DNA of 25,650 bases from a virus, in IMG/VR virus record IMGVR_UViG_3300031787_000746, positions 1 to 25,650 of that record; one strand, written 5' to 3'. This document shows, in pieces, positions 9,478 through 25,650 of this stretch. Under the pieces are notes generated by a model that ran no database searches, was not told the origin of the DNA, and worked only from the letters and a program-made list of their open reading frames with translations. Each line of letters starts with the position of its first letter. Positions within the stretch are counted from its first letter, which is position 1. The translations under genes were made by a program, and so were the position numbers.

Positions 9478-9750
9478 TTACTCCTTAGGTATATTGTACT
9501 CTCTGCCGTATTGCGAATAGTGTCCTATAGCATCAGGACTAGGATATTTGATATTACTTTCTACAGGCAAGCCAAATCGTTTGCGAATATTTCGCATGTC
9601 TGCTTGTGAGCCGCAACACGCTGCACATTCCAAAACAATTAATTCGGCTAATCTCTCTATGCCTTGCTTCGCATAATCATCAAACTCATCCCAACAGCCT
9701 TGTGCTGTAAGTCCTGATTCGTACAATAAATTTTCAAGTTTATCGTTCAT
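9478..9750 (-). CDS. MNERI/FGVE-family small protein, copy 4 (diverged)
   Basis: The start was set at ATG 9748-9750 because GGAG lies 6 nt upstream. The longer reading frame begins at a TTG without support. The 90-aa product begins MNDKLENLLYESG, has the family core ERLAELIVLECAACCG, and then RKRFGLPVES, which matches the FGVE end of its relatives but is followed by a tail of about 28 residues. Its last codons (CCT AAG GAG) form the Shine-Dalgarno sequence of the zinc-knuckle gene. It overlaps the preceding paralogue by 11 nt. The function of the family is unknown. Confidence 0.75.
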   Translation of the reverse strand: MNDKLENLLYESGLTAQGCWDEFDDYAKQGIERLAELIVLECAACCGSQADMRNIRKRFGLPVESNIKYPSPDAIGHYSQYGREYNIPKE

Positions 9751-9970
9751 CACCAACTCCGAAATGTTCTGCTACGTTGCAAATGCGGTTAACAACTTCC
9801 ATCATTTTACCATCACCACCTGGTTCAGGTAAGTCTCGTCCAAATACATCTATGCATTCTAACACAATCAATCCGGCAAATCGTTCAATAAATTGAACTT
9901 GCGTATCCCAAGTTTCACTAGAATCTTCTCTAGCAGCCTTGAGCCAACACTCTTTAATTTGTTCGTTCAT
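9740..9970 (-). CDS. MNERI/FGVE-family small protein, copy 3
   Basis: This 76-aa protein begins MNEQIKECWLKAARE, has core IERFAGLIVLECIDVFG, and ends NVAEHFGVGDER. It is a paralogue of the neighbours at 9970-10209 and 10804-11067 (shared MNE start, F/L-A-x-LIV-x-EC core, HFGV end). The ATG overlaps the preceding stop as TAATG. Its own GGA GTT codons in the FGV motif act as the Shine-Dalgarno sequence of the next copy. The function is unknown. Confidence 0.75.
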   Translation of the reverse strand: MNEQIKECWLKAAREDSSETWDTQVQFIERFAGLIVLECIDVFGRDLPEPGGDGKMMEVVNRICNVAEHFGVGDER

Positions 9971-10209
9971 TACTCAACTCCAAAATGCTGTTTAATCATT
10001 TTCGCTGCAATTTCTCTACCTGCTGCTCGGTGTCCTGCTATATCAGCAGTAAAAATCATACCGTCACTTTTATATACTGCTACATGCATACATTCACGGA
10101 TAATCAACTCGGCAAAGTTTTTACACTCTGGCATATCCCAATGCCCAATACCAAAATTATCTTCCATGTATCCAGCTTCAATAGCTAGTTCTTTAATTCG
10201 TTCGTTCAT
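9970..10209 (-). CDS. MNERI/FGVE-family small protein, copy 2
   Basis: This 79-aa protein begins MNERIKELAIEAGYMED, has core CKNFAELIIRECMHVAVY, and ends KMIKQHFGVE. It is the clearest member of the tandem family. Similar small proteins with this start and end occur in many T4-type marine phages (from memory, unnamed). A mixed alpha structure with a conserved ALIxxEC helix is likely. GAGGTGAG lies upstream of its ATG, inside the end of the GGQ gene. Its final TTT GGA GTT GAG codons provide GGAG for the next copy. Confidence 0.8.
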   Translation of the reverse strand: MNERIKELAIEAGYMEDNFGIGHWDMPECKNFAELIIRECMHVAVYKSDGMIFTADIAGHRAAGREIAAKMIKQHFGVE

Positions 10210-10610
10210 TATACACTCACCTCAAATTTAAAATCGTCAGGATCATCAACCAATTGGCTTTCTTTAACCTCAGTCCAACGACCATCTATTCTAATCTCTA
10301 GTTTAATCTTTGTCAACTCATCAGCAACCTTACGATCAATCTGATCCATCATTCCTGTTTTTCGGAGCGTTTCAAGTTTGTGCCATTTTTTGAACGTTTC
10401 CGTTTCGCACATTTTGACGAAGGCATCTCTTTTGTTGTCGAGTTGACTACGGCTAGATTCACTGTAACCTTTGGCCCCTGAGGCCCTATGCTTACAATGA
10501 ACTGCGGAACTAGTCTTATTTCGCTTCTGACCTCCGGCTCCGCTTCCTTTTGTATAGCTCCAGTCACAATCATCCTTTGTTACGCTAAAAAGTAATTGTC
10601 GTTCTTTCAT
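10209..10610 (-). CDS. Stand-alone GGQ release-factor-domain protein
   Basis: The start at ATG 10608-10610 is preferred because it forms a 4-nt ATGA overlap with the gene before it. The longer frame opens at a TTG. The 133-aa product carries KGSGAGGQKRNKTSSAV with GGQ at 26-28, followed by AVHCKHRASG and SRSQLDNKRDAF. This is the catalytic domain 3 of class I release factors and of ArfB-type peptidyl-tRNA hydrolases, which frees the peptide from P-site tRNA. There is no anticodon-mimic domain. Its C-terminus is acidic (DDPDDFKFEVSV) instead of the basic mRNA-channel tail of ArfB. It could rescue stalled ribosomes or act on host translation. This is inference. Confidence 0.88.
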   Translation of the reverse strand: MKERQLLFSVTKDDCDWSYTKGSGAGGQKRNKTSSAVHCKHRASGAKGYSESSRSQLDNKRDAFVKMCETETFKKWHKLETLRKTGMMDQIDRKVADELTKIKLEIRIDGRWTEVKESQLVDDPDDFKFEVSV

Positions 10611-10807
10611 GATTTCCATCCCCAACTAATCATTAAGTGTCCAATAATGATTTGATATAGTTTCGTATCACCTTCGGAAGGTTCTACACTACCAATAAAA
10701 AATCCCATATTAATCTTTTCATTTTGTCGATTAATGTAATACCAAGTTTCTTTACCCCAATCAATCTGAACTTGTAGTCGCCCAAAAGAATGAATATTAG
10801 TTTTCAT
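10607..10807 (-). CDS. Small protein of unknown function
   Basis: This 66-aa protein is rich in beta-type sequence (RLQVQIDWGKETWYYINR, then KINMGFFIGSVEP). No family is recognised. It overlaps both neighbours by 4 nt. Its Shine-Dalgarno sequence is GGAG, contributed by the FGVE codons of the preceding gene. The position between a FGVE-family gene and the GGQ gene, with tight coupling, supports it being real. Confidence 0.65.
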   Translation of the reverse strand: MKTNIHSFGRLQVQIDWGKETWYYINRQNEKINMGFFIGSVEPSEGDTKLYQIIIGHLMISWGWKS

Positions 10808-11067
10808 TCTTCAACTCCGAACTGTTCTCTTAATTGTTCTGAAGCAAAATGATCGTCTAAAGTGTCTGCAAGAAAATCTGCACATTCTCTAACAGTTTCA
10901 ATTGTGCCGTCACTCTTTCCAGCAATATATCCTTGACTGAAAAATTCTTTCTCCAGTAACTCGGCGAACTTGTTTAACTGTGCCGGCAGTAATTTATCAG
11001 TATTGGGGTTGTCCCAATATTCTTCTGCCCAAATCTTGTCAGCAAGTTCTCGGATTCGTTCGTTCAT
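10804..11067 (-). CDS. MNERI/FGVE-family small protein, copy 1
   Basis: This 87-aa protein begins MNERIRELADKIWAEEYWD, has core LNKFAELLEKEFFSQGY, then KSDGTIETV, and ends EQLREQFGVEE. It shares the start, core and end of the copies at 9740-10209, and shares KSDG with copy 2 (VYKSDGMIF), so they probably arose by tandem duplication. The ATG overlaps the previous stop as TAATG, with AAGGA from the previous gene's last codons. Its own FGVE codons supply the next gene's Shine-Dalgarno sequence. Confidence 0.78.
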   Translation of the reverse strand: MNERIRELADKIWAEEYWDNPNTDKLLPAQLNKFAELLEKEFFSQGYIAGKSDGTIETVRECADFLADTLDDHFASEQLREQFGVEE

Positions 11068-11252
11068 TATCGTTCCTTAAACAGCGGTACACCATCGGTT
11101 AAATGTCTAATGTATTCTAAGTTAGTTGGGAAAGAGTCAAGTGTGCCTCGGTGTCGCTGAATGCTTATTTCAAATGGTTCTTGTCGTTCAAGACCATAGA
11201 AAAACATTTCTGTAGCACCTTCTTCAATTTGTTTTTTAAAGTGTTCGTTCAT
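11067..11252 (-). CDS. Small MNE-start protein of unknown function
   Basis: This 61-aa protein begins MNEHFKKQIEEGATEMFFYG and ends GVPLFKER. It shares the start-region DNA (ATGAACGAAC.) with the FGVE family but lacks the core helix and the FGVE end, so it is at most a distant or truncated relative. Its start overlaps the stop of the 398-aa gene as TAATG, and its last codons carry AAGGA for the following gene. Confidence 0.65.
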   Translation of the reverse strand: MNEHFKKQIEEGATEMFFYGLERQEPFEISIQRHRGTLDSFPTNLEYIRHLTDGVPLFKER

Positions 11253-18099: not shown

Positions 18100-21000
18100 T
18101 TAAGTGATGTATGGCCCATCAATAAACCAAGAATCAGTTCCCACTTTTATAATTCTAGCCAATCCCCAGTTTGATATAGTTCTAGTACCTGTAGTGCCTG
18201 TTCCTGTTAACTTAAGTGTTACTCCAACAGCAGGAATAACAGAAATATTATATCCTGCACCTAAGTCGTTAATTACATTGATTTCAGTACCAATCGGGAA
18301 CGCTGCAGTTGCGTCTGTAGGAATATTAAGTTGTAAGCTTCCTGCATTACTATTAAAGTAAATTAACCAACCTGCATCACTTAAGTTTAATGTATAGTTA
18401 GTGTTAGTAGACCTTACTGGATTACCTCTATATCCAATCGGATATTGAGCAGAACTATTATAAATTGTACTGTTTGCGCCACCAATTATAATGTTACCTG
18501 GTAATGTTGTATTACCGTTCGCATCCAATAGTGTTAATTCACGACTAACTGTAGTGAACGGACCAGAACCACCAGTAGTATACTGACGAACATAGATAGG
18601 CTCATTTCCGTTATCTGCAGTATCAATAGATACAAACCCTGCATTTGCTGCTGTTCCACCAACTTGAATTCTAAAGTAATCATCAGTTGCTATATTTGCT
18701 AAAATTAAGTTAGCATTATTTGTACCAGTTAATGTAGGTCCTATTAAATTACCTGTTAAATTCACTGCTGTTACATTAGCAGTTACACTTAGTGATGCAC
18801 CAACTCTAACATTGCCATTTGCACTTAAAGTGCCTGGGAAAGTAGTATTTCCGCCTGAGTCTAGTAAGGTTATTTGACGATTAACTTGTCCAAATGGGTT
18901 ACCTTGATCAGTGATGTACTGTCTTACATATACCGCCTCATTACCTTCATTTGCTACGTCAATAGAAACAAAGCCTTCACTAGCTGATGCACCGCCAATT
19001 TGTAATCTGAAGTAATCATCACCTGCCATTGTAGTGTTGATTATATTAGCAGTTGTAGTGCCTGTAACTGATGTGTTTACACTGCTTGCATATAAAATGT
19101 TTGCAGTAATATTTGCGCTAGTGCTTAAGTTACCAGCTAATAGTGTGTTGCCGCTAGCATCAAGTAATGTAAGTGTTCTAGACGGGCTGCCACCACTAAA
19201 CTGTTTAAAGTAGATTGGTTCGTTTCCATTATCACCTGTTTCAAAACTTACATAGCCCTGATCTATTCCTGTACCACCAACTACAACTCTGAAGAAGTCA
19301 CTATCAGCAATGTTTGAATTTATTAGATTAGCTGTCTGTGTTCCTGTCAATGTATTAGTTGTTAATACACCCTTAATATTGCCATAGAAATTATTACCTG
19401 TTATGTTATTTGCAGTTATATCAGAACCTGTAGCTAAATTACCAATAAAGTTATTAGCAGTAATATTTCCTGTAGCACTTATATTACCAGAATATGTTAA
19501 TGGTCCTGTGCCAGCACGACCTAACTTTGCTGAATTATCACTTGAACCAAATATAATATATCCATTAGCTGCAGTGGTTCCACCTGTTACCATTAATGAA
19601 TCAGCAACAGCTGGATCACCCAACCAAGCTTGTGTTCCAACCTTAATTATATTGGCGCCTGACGCTGTTCCTAGTAGCGCGGAAGTAGTTATATTACCAC
19701 TTGCACTTAGGGTAGTAACACTAGCAGTAGTGATTGTCGCTAATGTTGCAGATACATTACCTATTAGAGTACCTGATGTAGTAATATTTCCTGTTGCTGT
19801 AATTATATTACTTGTTCTTAAATTACCTGCGTCAAGATTACCTGTTGCACTAACTCTTCCTGCAGTGAATATATTTGCGCCTGTAATGTCTCCTGTTGCA
19901 GTAACAACACCGGAGGTTACTAGATTTAGACCAGTAATATTACCTGTAGCAGTAATAATTGCACCTGTTCCACCAATTGCACTGAAACTTGCTGCTCTAA
20001 CTGTACCTACTGCACTAATACTTTGAGAAGTGTTTACATTTCCTGTTGCATTTAAGTTCTGTGATAAGTTTATATTTCCAGTTGCACTAAATGCAGATAC
20101 ATTTAAAGTGCCACTTGGGCCCATATTAATGTTGCCTGCTACTGATATACTTCCACCAACACTTAGCGATTGTTGTATTCTTGTATTACCGTCAGTATCT
20201 AGTAGTGTAACCTGATTGTAAATTGAAGTGAATGGGGAACCTGTTGTGCCTGTGTACTGTCTAAAGTAAATTGGTTCAGTGCCATTATCAGCAGTATCAA
20301 AAGATACATAACCAGCATCTGTACTAGTGTTTGCACCTACTATAATTCTAAAAAAGTCATCAAAGGCAATGTTACTTGCTCTTACTAACTCAAAATTAGC
20401 ATTGTTATTTAAGGTTCTTGTTAATCCGCCAATGAAGTATTGACCAGTTACATTGCCTGTTGTGCTTATTCCACTAGAATTAGCTAGGAAGAACGAACTT
20501 GCAGTTATGTTTCCTGCTGTGCTTATACCTGTGCTGTTAGCAGAGAATCCTGTGGCACTGATCACACTACCTGTAATGCTTATATTAGAACTTGATAATG
20601 TGAAACCGCTACCTTTTACTACATTACCATTAGCACTTAAATTACCTGGGATAACTGTGTTACCTGTTGAATCTAATAATGCTAGATTACTTGTGACTGT
20701 AAGACCATTTAACTGTCTAAAGTAAATAGGTTCATTTCCATTGTCACCCATGTCAAACGAAATAAATCCTTGATCAGGGCTTGTACCACCAACTGTTAAC
20801 TTAAAGTAGTCAGTAGTGGCTATGTTAGCTGTTATTATATCAACGTTTGTAGTACCTGATAGTGCGTTGATAGTATGAACACCATATAAGGTACCATAGA
20901 AGTTACTGTTAGTAGATCCGATTCCTCTGAAGTTGTTAGCCTCTACATTACCAGCTACCAAAGTAGATGAGCTTAAATTAACTGTTCCGAATAAGTTTGT

Positions 21001-24000
21001 TGCAGTTAAGTTACCAGTTAGGCTTAAATCACCATTATATGTTAATGGTCCTGTACCTGCTCTACCTAAACTTTGACTATTATTTCCATTACCAAATATA
21101 ATATAACCATTTGCAGCATTCGCTTGACCCTTAATCATAACAGTGTCATTGATGCCTACTTCACCTATCCATGCTCTAGTAGCAACTCTGAAGTTTTCTC
21201 CGGTACCTGCAGTATTACTTGAAACTACAATGTTACCAGTAAGATTGCCTGTTACGCTAGCTAGGCTACCTGTCATTGAGGTAATTGATGCTGAAGTTGC
21301 TGTTAAATTACCATTAAAGTTATTTGCATTAATGTTACCAGTAGCACTTGTTACTGTACCTAATAGTGTTTGAATATTAGCTGTAGTTGCAATTAAATTA
21401 CCATTGAACCAATAATCAGTGTTTACGTTACCTGCTGCAGATATTACACCTGATATACCACCAAACGTACTAATTGATCCTGCTGTAACATTTGAAGAAA
21501 CACTTAATCTAACTCCTTCAATATTGCCAGTTGAAGTTAATAATGCACCCCTAATAGTGTTATCTACTGTTAGACTACCTAACATTGATTGGACACCAAG
21601 GCCAGTTATTCTTATGTTTCCTGCTGCACTTAGATTGCCGCCTACACTTAATCTATTGGTAATAGCAGCGTTACCACGTACTGTGAGATCAAACATGCTA
21701 ACATCATTAATAAAGTTAGCTAAACTACTATTCATGTTTAATGCATTAGCAGTGCCTGATATACCAAATCGTACATTTCCATTAAGGTCTACTACAACGT
21801 TACTTGTACCATTTACGATTGAAGTGCCTGCAGCAATAGAAATGTTAGTAAGTAGACCACCGTCACCTTGGAAATAATTTGCTCGTACTAAATTACCTAA
21901 ATTACTTGTGACTGCTGATCCTTGTCCTAATGTTAGGTTACCTGCTGCACTTATACTTCCTGCTGTGCTAATTAAACCTGTAGAAAATATTGTTGCGTTC
22001 CCTGTAATAATACTAGCACCTGTGATACTTCCAGCAGCAGAAATTGTATTTGTCGCTCTAAAATTTTGAGCATTTGCAAATGAAGTTACACTTAAACTTT
22101 CTGTAACACTAAGGTTAGATGTAACAGATAATATACTGCCACCTTCTGGTCTAATGATATTACCTCTTACACTTAAGTTACCTGGTAATACTGTGTTACC
22201 AGTACCATCTAATAATGTTAAGTTTGAGAATTCACTAGCAAATGAACCTGTATATTGCCTTATGTAAATTGGGGCTCTTGTACTTCCTGCAGTGGCGATC
22301 TCTACGAAACCGTCATTTAAACCTGTACCACCTGCTCTAAATCTAAATTGATCATTGGTAGCTATGTTACCAAATAAAATGTCTGCATTACCTGCAAGTA
22401 ACTGATTTGTGTAAATGTTTGCTGTAACAACATTAGCAGTAATATTTGCACTTGTACTTAAATTACCTGGGAATGTTGTATTACCAGCACTGTCTAATAG
22501 AGTTAATGTACGGTTTATTGTTCCACCAGTGTATTGTCTTACGTGTACAGATTCATTACCATTGTCTCCAACATCGATAGATACAAATCCCTGATCAGGT
22601 GCAGTGCCACCTACGTTAATTCTAAAGAAATCACTATCAGCAACACTAGCCCTGATCCACTCGTAAACATTACTTCCTGTGATGTTAGGACTAAACAACT
22701 TACCAGTGAAATTACCGCCATAGAAGTTGTTTGAAGTAAAGCTATTTGCATTTACATCAGCGTTGCCTATATTAACATTACCAGTAATAGTACCGCTTAC
22801 ACTTAGATTACCTGCGTTTATATTAGAAGTAACGCTAAAATTGCCTGTGTAAGTAAGTGCGTTAGTACCAATTCTACCCAATTTAGCTGTGCTGTCTGCA
22901 TTACCAAATATAATGAAACCATTTGCACCACTCGTTCCACCTTTAACTATAATTGAATCTGCTACGTCAGGATCACCTATAAACGCATTTGCACCAATTT
23001 TATATGCCTCGTCAGTAGTTGTGGTTGATACGAACTTAGAAGATGTTACAGTACCGATGACACTTACATTAGTTCCTGTCATTTCTGTGATAGCAGCAGA
23101 ACATGCACTAATATTTGCAGTTATAGATGGTATACTTAATGTATTTCCGGTTATAACATTAGCAGTAATATTTCCTGTGGTTGATAGATTGCCACCGAAA
23201 ATGTTAGCTAGTACACTAATAGTATTGGATCTTACGTTACCAACAAGACTTGCACCAGTGATATTTCCTGTTACACTTACTGTTGTACCATTAAATTCTG
23301 TACCAACAACCAAACCAGTTGTTGTCAAATTACCTGCAATAACATTACCTGTAGCAGTAACAAGTCCAGTCGTTCTTAAATTTCCACCATTAATATTAGC
23401 AGTTACAGAAATATTATTACCTAAATGCGTAAAGATATTTGCGTTTGGTGAATAAAAATCAGTTATATTTGCGCTAGCGGCATTTACAGTTCCTGTTGTG
23501 CTTAATTGTCCATTAAACCAAACTGCATTTACATTGCTTGTTGCAGAAAGGTTAGCAGCAACAATTCTCGTAGCATTAACAGTTGACCCTGTAGGGAATG
23601 TTGTATTACCTTGACTGTCAAGTAAAGTTAAAGTTCTAGTTGGAGTACCATAAGGATTGCCGCCTGAATTACTATACTGTCTAAATTGTATTGTTTCCGC
23701 TGAATCATCTGCTGTATCAAAAGACACGAACCCTGCTTCAGAGGTGCCACCTATTTGAATTCTAAAGTAATCAGATCCAGCCATTGTAGCATTGATAATA
23801 TTTGCTGTGCTTCCAGAAGGTGCAACAATTGAAATATTACCAATTATGCTTGATGCTTGAACTCCACCAACTACACTTAAGTTACCAGGTAATGTCGTAT
23901 TTCCATTATTATCAAGTAGTGTTAATGTTCTAGTAACCGTTGTTCCTGTAACTTGATTAAAGTAAATAAATTCATTACCTTCATTACCAACGTTAAATGA

Positions 24001-25650
24001 CACATGAGCGGTGTCTGTTGATACACCACCAACTGAAACATTAAAGAAATCACTAGTTGCTATATTTGCTCTTATAATTTCGTAGTTTGCAGTGCTTGTT
24101 TGCAAAGGTATAGTTAATCTACCAAAGAAATTACCAGTATTCGCATAGAAGTTTTGTGCAGTAAAGCTATTAGCTGATATATCTTGTGTGCCTAAATTTA
24201 AGTTACCAATAATATTATTAGCTGTGATATTGCCAACTAATGATACATCCCCATTATATGTCAATGGTCCTGTACCAGAACGCCCTAATAATTTACTTGT
24301 GTCACTACCAAATGATATGTATCCAGTAGTATCGTTTTGTTGACCACGAATACTTAATGTGTTAATTATATTAACATCACCTAACCAAGCTCCGTCACCA
24401 ACTTTAACGCCTCTACCATCACCTTTAGCATTTGAAATTAATACACCATTTGCTGTAACGTTTGATGTAACAGAAACATTGCCACCAATATAGTTGGTTA
24501 CATTTGCAGTTGTTATACCAATGATTGAGCCTGGTCCTACTAGGTTAGCACCAACAATATTACCACTTTCTATGTAAGTTGATGGACTTGGACCTATACC
24601 AATGTTTAATCTTGTACGGACAAAGCTATTAAGATTTTCTATACGATTAGCATATAAATGTAGATTACTGTTGGTTAAATTAGCAGCATTTGACGTAACT
24701 GTATTAAAGTATCCAGTAGGAGCATATACAAATGAATTAAAGTTTGCATTAGGGCCAATTAATGAACCTGTTAAACTGAAATTATTTGCATTTAGGTTTG
24801 GAGCTAGTATATTTGCATTAGTTGAAGTCAACAACATGACGGATGTTGAACCTGCAAATACATTAACATTTCCACCTGTACCTTGATTCAATAGAATTCC
24901 GCTTGTGGTTCCGTTAATTGTGTTTACTCCAAACAATGTTGGTATAGTTGCGCTTGGCGCTGTTACGCCAGTTGCTAAATTTAATGCTCCTGATAGTGTT
25001 AAGCTTCCGCCTACATTTAGACTGCCGCCAATACCTACACCACCTGCTACTATTAATGCGCCTGAAGTAGGTGATGTAGCAACAGTTGTTTGACGTATAT
25101 TAACACCCTGATTATTGACTACAGGAAGTTGAGCAGTTATTATATAATTTGTACCATTGCTATAAATGTTGTATTCATTAGATAAATTTTCTCTAATTAA
25201 TACTGATTGGCTTCCGCTATACCCTGCGCCTTCTATTGTTCCACTTGGTGTTTGTAGTGTATAAACGCTATCTGCTACTGTTAATATTAGTTTTACTTCG
25301 TACCCTCTATTACTTGTTGGATTAGGTAGATTAATTGCATAATTATTTCCTGCAGGTTGAATAATACCTACAATATTAGTAACAGTGAACGGACCAGAAC
25401 TAGGCGTTACAACGTTTGATACTAATGCGCCAGTTATTGTGCCTGTCAATGAAATGTTATTAGCTGTTAAATTACCAGTATATGTTGGTAAGTAAGCAGC
25501 TACGTTTGCATTACCGTAAACACTTGTATTAACTCCTGTTAAGAATGCACCGTTACCAAAAATGTAGTTACCAGTAATGTTACCGGATGCTGACATTACA
25601 GTACCAAGAACTGACTTATCTGATACAATATTACCAACAGCACTTATATC
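18100..25650 (-). CDS. Giant repetitive tail-fibre-like protein (5' end missing)
   Basis: At least 2,516 codons lie in the window. The frame is open through the right edge (DISAVGNIVSDKSVLGTV precedes MSASGNITG), so the ATG at 25594-25596 is internal. The protein is built from short LSVTGNITGxN-type beta repeats, which suggest a trimeric fibrous beta structure. Two larger modules recur: four W-modules (AWLGDP...GYIIFG...LGRAGTGPLTY) and nine L-modules (DYFRIQVGGT...GFVSIDTADNGNEPIYVRQY...LTLLDANGNTTLPGNL). The C-terminal domain (SDAGWLIYFNSNAGSLQLNI to WFIDGPYIT) may be the tip. No peptidase S74 chaperone is seen. It is a probable host-recognition fibre or large appendage. Confidence 0.85.
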   Translation of the reverse strand, partial: DISAVGNIVSDKSVLGTVMSASGNITGNYIFGNGAFLTGVNTSVYGNANVAAYLPTYTGNLTANNISLTGTITGALVSNVVTPSSGPFTVTNIVGIIQPAGNNYAINLPNPTSNRGYEVKLILTVADSVYTLQTPSGTIEGAGYSGSQSVLIRENLSNEYNIYSNGTNYIITAQLPVVNNQGVNIRQTTVATSPTSGALIVAGGVGIGGSLNVGGSLTLSGALNLATGVTAPSATIPTLFGVNTINGTTSGILLNQGTGGNVNVFAGSTSVMLLTSTNANILAPNLNANNFSLTGSLIGPNANFNSFVYAPTGYFNTVTSNAANLTNSNLHLYANRIENLNSFVRTRLNIGIGPSPSTYIESGNIVGANLVGPGSIIGITTANVTNYIGGNVSVTSNVTANGVLISNAKGDGRGVKVGDGAWLGDVNIINTLSIRGQQNDTTGYISFGSDTSKLLGRSGTGPLTYNGDVSLVGNITANNIIGNLNLGTQDISANSFTAQNFYANTGNFFGRLTIPLQTSTANYEIIRANIATSDFFNVSVGGVSTDTAHVSFNVGNEGNEFIYFNQVTGTTVTRTLTLLDNNGNTTLPGNLSVVGGVQASSIIGNISIVAPSGSTANIINATMAGSDYFRIQIGGTSEAGFVSFDTADDSAETIQFRQYSNSGGNPYGTPTRTLTLLDSQGNTTFPTGSTVNATRIVAANLSATSNVNAVWFNGQLSTTGTVNAASANITDFYSPNANIFTHLGNNISVTANINGGNLRTTGLVTATGNVIAGNLTTTGLVVGTEFNGTTVSVTGNITGASLVGNVRSNTISVLANIFGGNLSTTGNITANVITGNTLSIPSITANISACSAAITEMTGTNVSVIGTVTSSKFVSTTTTDEAYKIGANAFIGDPDVADSIIVKGGTSGANGFIIFGNADSTAKLGRIGTNALTYTGNFSVTSNINAGNLSVSGTITGNVNIGNADVNANSFTSNNFYGGNFTGKLFSPNITGSNVYEWIRASVADSDFFRINVGGTAPDQGFVSIDVGDNGNESVHVRQYTGGTINRTLTLLDSAGNTTFPGNLSTSANITANVVTANIYTNQLLAGNADILFGNIATNDQFRFRAGGTGLNDGFVEIATAGSTRAPIYIRQYTGSFASEFSNLTLLDGTGNTVLPGNLSVRGNIIRPEGGSILSVTSNLSVTESLSVTSFANAQNFRATNTISAAGSITGASIITGNATIFSTGLISTAGSISAAGNLTLGQGSAVTSNLGNLVRANYFQGDGGLLTNISIAAGTSIVNGTSNVVVDLNGNVRFGISGTANALNMNSSLANFINDVSMFDLTVRGNAAITNRLSVGGNLSAAGNIRITGLGVQSMLGSLTVDNTIRGALLTSTGNIEGVRLSVSSNVTAGSISTFGGISGVISAAGNVNTDYWFNGNLIATTANIQTLLGTVTSATGNINANNFNGNLTATSASITSMTGSLASVTGNLTGNIVVSSNTAGTGENFRVATRAWIGEVGINDTVMIKGQANAANGYIIFGNGNNSQSLGRAGTGPLTYNGDLSLTGNLTATNLFGTVNLSSSTLVAGNVEANNFRGIGSTNSNFYGTLYGVHTINALSGTTNVDIITANIATTDYFKLTVGGTSPDQGFISFDMGDNGNEPIYFRQLNGLTVTSNLALLDSTGNTVIPGNLSANGNVVKGSGFTLSSSNISITGSVISATGFSANSTGISTAGNITASSFFLANSSGISTTGNVTGQYFIGGLTRTLNNNANFELVRASNIAFDDFFRIIVGANTSTDAGYVSFDTADNGTEPIYFRQYTGTTGSPFTSIYNQVTLLDTDGNTRIQQSLSVGGSISVAGNINMGPSGTLNVSAFSATGNINLSQNLNATGNVNTSQSISAVGTVRAASFSAIGGTGAIITATGNITGLNLVTSGVVTATGDITGANIFTAGRVSATGNLDAGNLRTSNIITATGNITTSGTLIGNVSATLATITTASVTTLSASGNITTSALLGTASGANIIKVGTQAWLGDPAVADSLMVTGGTTAANGYIIFGSSDNSAKLGRAGTGPLTYSGNISATGNITANNFIGNLATGSDITANNITGNNFYGNIKGVLTTNTLTGTQTANLINSNIADSDFFRVVVGGTGIDQGYVSFETGDNGNEPIYFKQFSGGSPSRTLTLLDASGNTLLAGNLSTSANITANILYASSVNTSVTGTTTANIINTTMAGDDYFRLQIGGASASEGFVSIDVANEGNEAVYVRQYITDQGNPFGQVNRQITLLDSGGNTTFPGTLSANGNVRVGASLSVTANVTAVNLTGNLIGPTLTGTNNANLILANIATDDYFRIQVGGTAANAGFVSIDTADNGNEPIYVRQYTTGGSGPFTTVSRELTLLDANGNTTLPGNIIIGGANSTIYNSSAQYPIGYRGNPVRSTNTNYTLNLSDAGWLIYFNSNAGSLQLNIPTDATAAFPIGTEINVINDLGAGYNISVIPAVGVTLKLTGTGTTGTRTISNWGLARIIKVGTDSWFIDGPYIT
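18490..24105 (-). repeat. Nine L-modules (LTLLDxxGNT) inside the fibre gene
   Basis: Approximate positions in coding order are 23880-24105, 23590-23815, 22465-22690, 22170-22400, 20640-20870, 20150-20410, 19120-19345, 18830-19060 and 18490-18725. Each encodes about 75 residues: NIATDDYFRIQVGGT, then GFVSIDTADNGNE, PIYVRQY, and LTLLDANGNTTLPGNLS. The copies are diverged at both protein and DNA level, so they are old duplications, not recent ones. Confidence 0.85.
19489..24420 (-). repeat. Four W-modules (AWLGDP...LGRAGTGPLTY) inside the fibre gene
   Basis: Approximate positions in coding order are 24250-24420, 22840-23010, 21030-21200 and 19489-19650. Each encodes about 55 residues: KVGTQAWLGDPAVADSLMV, then ANGYIIFGSSDNSAKLGRAG and TGPLTYSGN. 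Each W-module is followed by two L-modules (three after the last), giving a higher-order repeat with a spacing of roughly 1.4-1.8 kb. Confidence 0.85.

Follow-up and report, generated by a model that had tools for sequence, protein, structure and literature searches.

The four genes described here belong to a family of small phage genes that probably constitutes a modular pool, the parts of which are joined by homologous recombination at short anchors conserved as DNA, the last anchor doubling as the ribosome site of the following gene. Each gene consists of a start anchor (ATGAACGAACGAATTAAAGAACTT), an N module, a middle anchor (GAAAAGTTCGCCGAGTTGATTGTNCGGGAATGT) of 27 nt, a C module and an exit anchor (CATTTCGGAGTTGAAGAATGA). 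Both modules are variable; their median lengths are about 24 codons for the N module and about 25 codons for the C module.

The window is a virus record of 25.65 kb (IMGVR_UViG_3300031787_000746), in which the family array is read on the minus strand, as are all features located below. Gene 1 (10804..11067; 87 aa, MNERIREL...FGVEE; from the list of open reading frames and the family HMM) has its middle anchor, FAELLEKEF, at 10942..10968 and its exit anchor, FGVEE followed by the stop codon, at 10804..10821. Gene 2 (9970..10209; 79 aa) has the middle anchor FAELIIREC (10090..10116), placed like that of gene 1 by translation and alignment, and ends with FGVE and a stop codon in a TAATG overlap (9970..9984). 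The middle anchor of gene 3 (9740..9970; 76 aa), FAGLIVLEC at 9854..9880, was placed by comparison with a relative of the window, locus L002, in which it is the site of a fusion; the exit anchor encodes FGVGDER (9740..9763). Gene 4 (9478..9750; 90 aa) was recognized from the same list and the family HMM, genes 2 and 3 from the list. It has the start and middle anchors, the latter being LAELIVLEC at 9625..9651, the acceptor end of the fusions in L002 and in a second relative, L008. Its end is different (FGLPVES...PKE), with no FGVE terminus. Gene 4 starts at the ATG at 9750 and not at a TTG codon at 9756. The final P-K-E and stop codons of this gene, CCT AAG GAG TAA (9490-9475), provide an AAGGAG upstream of the next ATG (9475), at a distance of 5 nt.

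Two unrelated genes lie between genes 1 and 2. The first (10607..10807), whose start is supplied by the gene 1 exit anchor, encodes 66 aa without a match to the family. The second (10209..10610) encodes a non-family RF-1-domain (GGQ) protein (Pfam PF00472, E=9e-13; phrog_3122); its product of 133 aa, with the GGQ stretch GAGGQKRNKTSSAVH, is a phage-encoded release-factor-like protein. A further non-family gene, of 61 aa with an MNEH start, was found in the list of open reading frames at 11067..11252. Elsewhere in the window, positions 18100-25596 encode a repeat-rich protein of 2498 aa, which may be a tail fibre or another surface protein of that kind.

Relatives were collected with codon-degenerate amino-acid patterns, so that codon choice was not selected for; regions of larger records were also sampled, and one degenerate scan for HFGVEE-TGA was added. 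A single pattern scan yielded at least 390 confirmed relatives. The final set comprised 320 loci (2.97 Mb), some of them overlapping on the same contig, with 743 unique copies by the family HMM after merging of copies identical in their last 150 nt. The 28 records searched whole contain 1 to 16 copies each. The host phages are uncultured and mostly large, and the T4-type capsid protein gp23 was matched in 18 of 36 large records, 17 times above the cut-off. Among cultured phages, a tblastn search with gene 2 gave no match, and a consensus query gave three weak ones (E 0.6-1). Bacterial and archaeal genomes yielded 7 loci only. Most of these lie on short MAG contigs bearing names of lake type and are presumably from misbinned phage contigs.

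The earlier note on this DNA had pointed out that the GGAG within the FGV codons of three genes lies just before the next ATG, and this holds in each case. Gene 1 ends with TTC GGA GTT GAA GAATGA (GGAG at 10818-10815, ATG at 10807-10805, gap of 7 nt), gene 2 with TTT GGA GTT GAG TAATG (GGAG at 9981-9978, ATG at 9970-9968, 7 nt), and gene 3 with TTC GGA GTT GGT GATGAACGATAA (GGAG at 9760-9757, ATG at 9750-9748, 6 nt). The gene following gene 1 (10807-10607) was confirmed to lie outside the family. Also borne out was the proposal that the rule is tied to the upstream gene. A set of 442 ends compiled earlier included 266 cases in which the next gene is unrelated and 118 in which it belongs to the family, and GGAG stands before 92.1% of the former and 91.5% of the latter. 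The anchor sequence precedes a family gene in 5.8% of cases when the upstream gene is unrelated, versus 71% when it belongs to the family. Over the 320 loci, 574 of 629 scored C-termini have an ATG or GTG 4-11 nt from the GGAG, and the distance is exactly 7 nt in 546 of them, a spacing that is more than chance. These phages use Shine-Dalgarno sites, since a GGAG, GAGG or AGGA 4-mer is present upstream of 39% of the long open reading frames versus 5.6% at a control position. These comparisons support the view that the FGV tail would supply a ribosome site to the next gene, whatever its kind.

Family genes without an adjacent start often enter a promoter-like sequence, TATAATACACAC, directly, sometimes with TTGACA upstream (L017 at 3186, L181 at 9432, L176 at 5433, L158 at 10168). 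The string TAACCCTACAGGTTGACAGGTCTTT was seen after three family gene ends (L150 at 7647 and 8578; L126 at 9296) and is possibly a shared promoter cassette.

Codon use was compared in 222 copies with mutually unrelated modules. The Gly of FGV is encoded by GGA in 95% (background 22%). Single codons also dominate in the other two anchors: Arg-4 of the start anchor is CGA in 91% (background 11%), and in the middle anchor Ala is GCC in 83% (background 19%), Glu is GAG in 90% (background 28%) and Leu is TTG in 89% (background 23%). Between unrelated copies, the codon difference at identical residues is 0.20 in the start, 0.27 in the middle and 0.20 in the exit anchor, where 0.59, 0.58 and 0.56 are expected. 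Residues identical by chance within unrelated modules served as a control and differ at 0.53 versus 0.57 expected. With this control near expectation and all three anchors frozen, the effect is anchor-specific, and the ribosome site alone does not account for it; the anchors are conserved as DNA beyond protein need. An out-of-frame ATG in the middle anchor, found in 362 of 477 copies, was considered as an internal start, but the median frame that it opens has 5 codons, and this role was rejected.

This bears on the suggestion, also made in the earlier note, that translation coupling helps to hold the conserved C-terminus. That GGA GTT is conserved by selection on coupling, the tail being kept solely as the ribosome site of the next gene, is unlikely. 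It would fit the prevailing spacing of 7 nt and the equal GGAG content before unrelated and family genes. The FGV residues are moreover intact in 93% of the copies touching a next start versus 59% of those far from one (p=4e-7), a gap that leans towards coupling but mostly separates copies with the whole block from copies without it. Against coupling, GGA GTT is used by 17 of 19 FGV copies far from a start, a small sample, and by 457 of 534 beside one (Fisher p=1.0); for GGA alone, the counts at FGV ends are 18 of 19 strictly far and 520 of 534 near (p=0.41). This codon test is a weak argument against coupling selection, given that few copies lie far from a start and that these may be young, several of them entering promoter-like sequence directly. 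The suggestion is also weakened by the equal synonymous freezing of the start (MNERIKEL) and middle (FAELIVREC) anchors, which serve no neighbour as ribosome sites. Conservation of the exit anchor may reflect direct selection or passive homogenisation by recombination.

The exit anchor is also found outside the family. The degenerate scan gave 340 unique HFGVEE-TGA sites, of which 33, some of them short fragments, were not assigned to the family; these have GGA in 33 of 33 and GTT in 32 of 33 cases. Fifteen belong to reading frames of at least 40 residues without family similarity. Pairs of homologues with and without the tail were identified: ...DTENIPVKEHFGVEE in L152 versus ...DTENIPDQPIEIEE in L040, and ...FEVEKHFGVEE versus ...FEVE in L097 and relatives. 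The protein encoded at 11252-11067 of the window ends with VPLFKER, whereas its homologue in L024 and L025 ends with VPFFTQEHFGVEE and carries the HFGVEE tail. The idea that the cassette could spread as a unit is thus upheld by its presence at the end of unrelated reading frames, some with tail-less homologues.

Across phages, N and C modules pair up almost at random. At 60% identity, a threshold with which the counts vary, 477 complete genes (related, non-independent copies on metagenomic fragments) fall into 322 N-module and 348 C-module clusters forming 471 pairings. Two or more partners were counted for each of the 79 N clusters that have several members and for 85 of the 86 C clusters of this kind, and only 6 of 423 pairs of genes with the same N module share their C module. 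For instance, 19 genes have the N module of gene 2, and their C modules belong to 17 different clusters. L026 and L136 have two N and two C clusters in common, but paired the other way round. Near-identical modules change partner within the middle anchor. When N modules are at least 90% identical, DNA identity is 0.95 in the module and 0.86 in the middle anchor; beyond the anchor, it falls to about 0.4, then 0.27-0.34, and it is 0.26-0.45 upstream of the start. Shared C modules give the mirror-image profile. Joints of this kind are found in close relatives of the window: L002 has a gene composed of the gene 3 N half and the gene 4 C half, and L008 one in which a gene-2-like N half is fused to that same C half. 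Both joints lie within the middle anchor. The same module is hardly ever present twice in one locus (no N pair, one C pair), so that exchange among tandem copies rests mainly on these two fusions. The family genes had been described as a tandem paralogue array; they are rather members of a two-module mosaic family, which would recombine at three DNA anchors.

The proposed explanation is that the array represents, in one place, part of a large pool of genes common to uncultured phages. The anchors would serve as sites of exchange through general homologous recombination, both between the genomes of co-infecting phages and among tandem copies. The exit anchor would persist both as a homology handle and as a ribosome site, so that any gene dropped behind it could be translated. 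General homologous recombination is the best-supported route, because 18 of the 24 large records contain a RecA-family match (RecA/UvsX-like), which exceeds the cut-off in 17 of them, whereas the same 24 records, which may be incomplete, contain no tyrosine integrase (PF00589), no resolvase (PF00239) above the cut-off and no reverse transcriptase (PF00078). The length of the anchors, about 25-40 bp, is short for some recombination pathways and counts against this model. The sharp boundaries within one short sequence could instead suggest a dedicated module mover, namely a site-specific recombinase, an invertase or a diversity-generating retroelement. This is quite improbable, given the lack of the corresponding enzymes among the 24 records and the fact that modules are replaced whole and not mutated at chosen bases. 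A broader picture is put forward tentatively: small proteins made of two parts may form a combinatorial library common to phages of several lineages, with the coding anchors as universal connectors. The middle anchor would link any N module with any C module, and the exit anchor would link any gene with whichever gene comes next while providing a ribosome site. New proteins and operons could then arise by ordinary recombination with frame and expression kept.

The products of the family matter, because the modules are under purifying selection, with dN/dS values of 0.13 and 0.12. The predicted structure of one member is a small three-helix protein (pLDDT 82, pTM 0.69) with the anchors in helices. 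Pfam and PHROGs gave no match for the family genes of the window, and almost nothing for 33 family members (one PHROG match for one member, E=0.003). A sequence search of the PDB gave no useful match, and the best E value of a fold search was 2.7, so that the family has no significant profile or fold match in Pfam, PHROGs or the PDB. The best match in BFVD (E=1.9e-3) was to uncharacterized proteins of uncultured phages. One guess, from the size, the predicted fold and the shuffling, is that the proteins might act on host targets as helical adaptors or inhibitors whose specificity would change with the exchange of modules.

The location of the anchors within predicted helices, and the purifying selection on the modules, would also be compatible with the conserved stretches being mere protein motifs, that is helix-forming segments whose DNA identity is incidental. 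This is very unlikely, as synonymous difference in the anchors is 0.20-0.27 versus 0.56-0.59 expected while identical residues inside the modules differ as expected, and as the HFGVEE tail is found on unrelated proteins, some of which have tail-less homologues. Finally, the anchors are short repeats, which are a known hazard for assemblers, but it is scarcely credible that the mosaics are metagenome assembly chimaeras at these repeats, since nearly all copies would need to be chimaeric (417 of 423 same-N pairs differ in their C module), the same arrays recur in different metagenomes (L058, L060, L061, L065, L066, L176 and L205; also L011 and L013), and within one cluster the modules diverge at about 44% of their synonymous sites, so that joints are not limited to co-assembled sequences.

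The anchors touch on the long-standing question of how phage genes are kept in frame and expressed despite free exchange. Border, breakpoint and expression signal are here the same short coding sequences, present in hundreds of copies, so that one could measure rates, the minimal homology and what the ribosome site contributes. The protein family is very abundant, although absent from Pfam, PHROGs and the cultured-phage searches that were made, and its shuffling points to diversity being of use in itself, as would be the case in host conflicts. A literature search, with most subscription journals outside its scope, returned no description of an anchor-module system and no paper for the peptide strings of the family.

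Several known systems share parts of this organization. The start-associated sequence (SAS) of Cluster K mycobacteriophages is a 13-bp repeat, GGGATAGGAGCCC, with a Shine-Dalgarno core, located before the starts of different gene families (PMC3203893). Like the SAS, which sometimes covers the upstream stop codon, the exit anchor is a short conserved DNA with such a core before varied genes, including the 266 unrelated next genes. However, the 13-bp repeat itself is not found directly before the starts, the anchor being TTCGGAGTTGAAGAATGA with the GGAG core only in common. Whereas the SAS is tied to the downstream gene, the exit anchor is coding, specifies the FGVEE tail and follows the upstream gene; it also has two companion anchors, and shuffled modules lie between the three. 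For module exchange between phages, a role of short conserved boundary sequences was proposed, but these could not be identified at most borders (PMC3029335). Here, too, short conserved border DNA is found where homologous recombination could swap modules, and it contains the breakpoint; unlike in that proposal, one anchor lies inside the gene, copies number in the hundreds and the choice of partner is near random. Stop-start overlaps (ATGA, TGATG) with coupled translation are described as widespread (PMC6728339, PMC10666635). The geometry of the overlap is the same here and coupled translation would be expected, but the overlap lies within a portable DNA unit that is also found on unrelated proteins. 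Shufflons generate protein diversity through recombination of one constant part with a large number of variable ones. Polymorphic toxins obtain diversity in the same manner (PMC3482391). In contrast to both, the two modules vary here while both ends and the middle are constant, there is no hint of a toxin, and no invertase-type recombinase family was detected: neither the tyrosine or serine recombinase of site-specific inversion nor the reverse transcriptase of diversity-generating retroelements was found in the 24 records, possibly incomplete. The present system thus combines known elements and adds to them an anchor within the gene.
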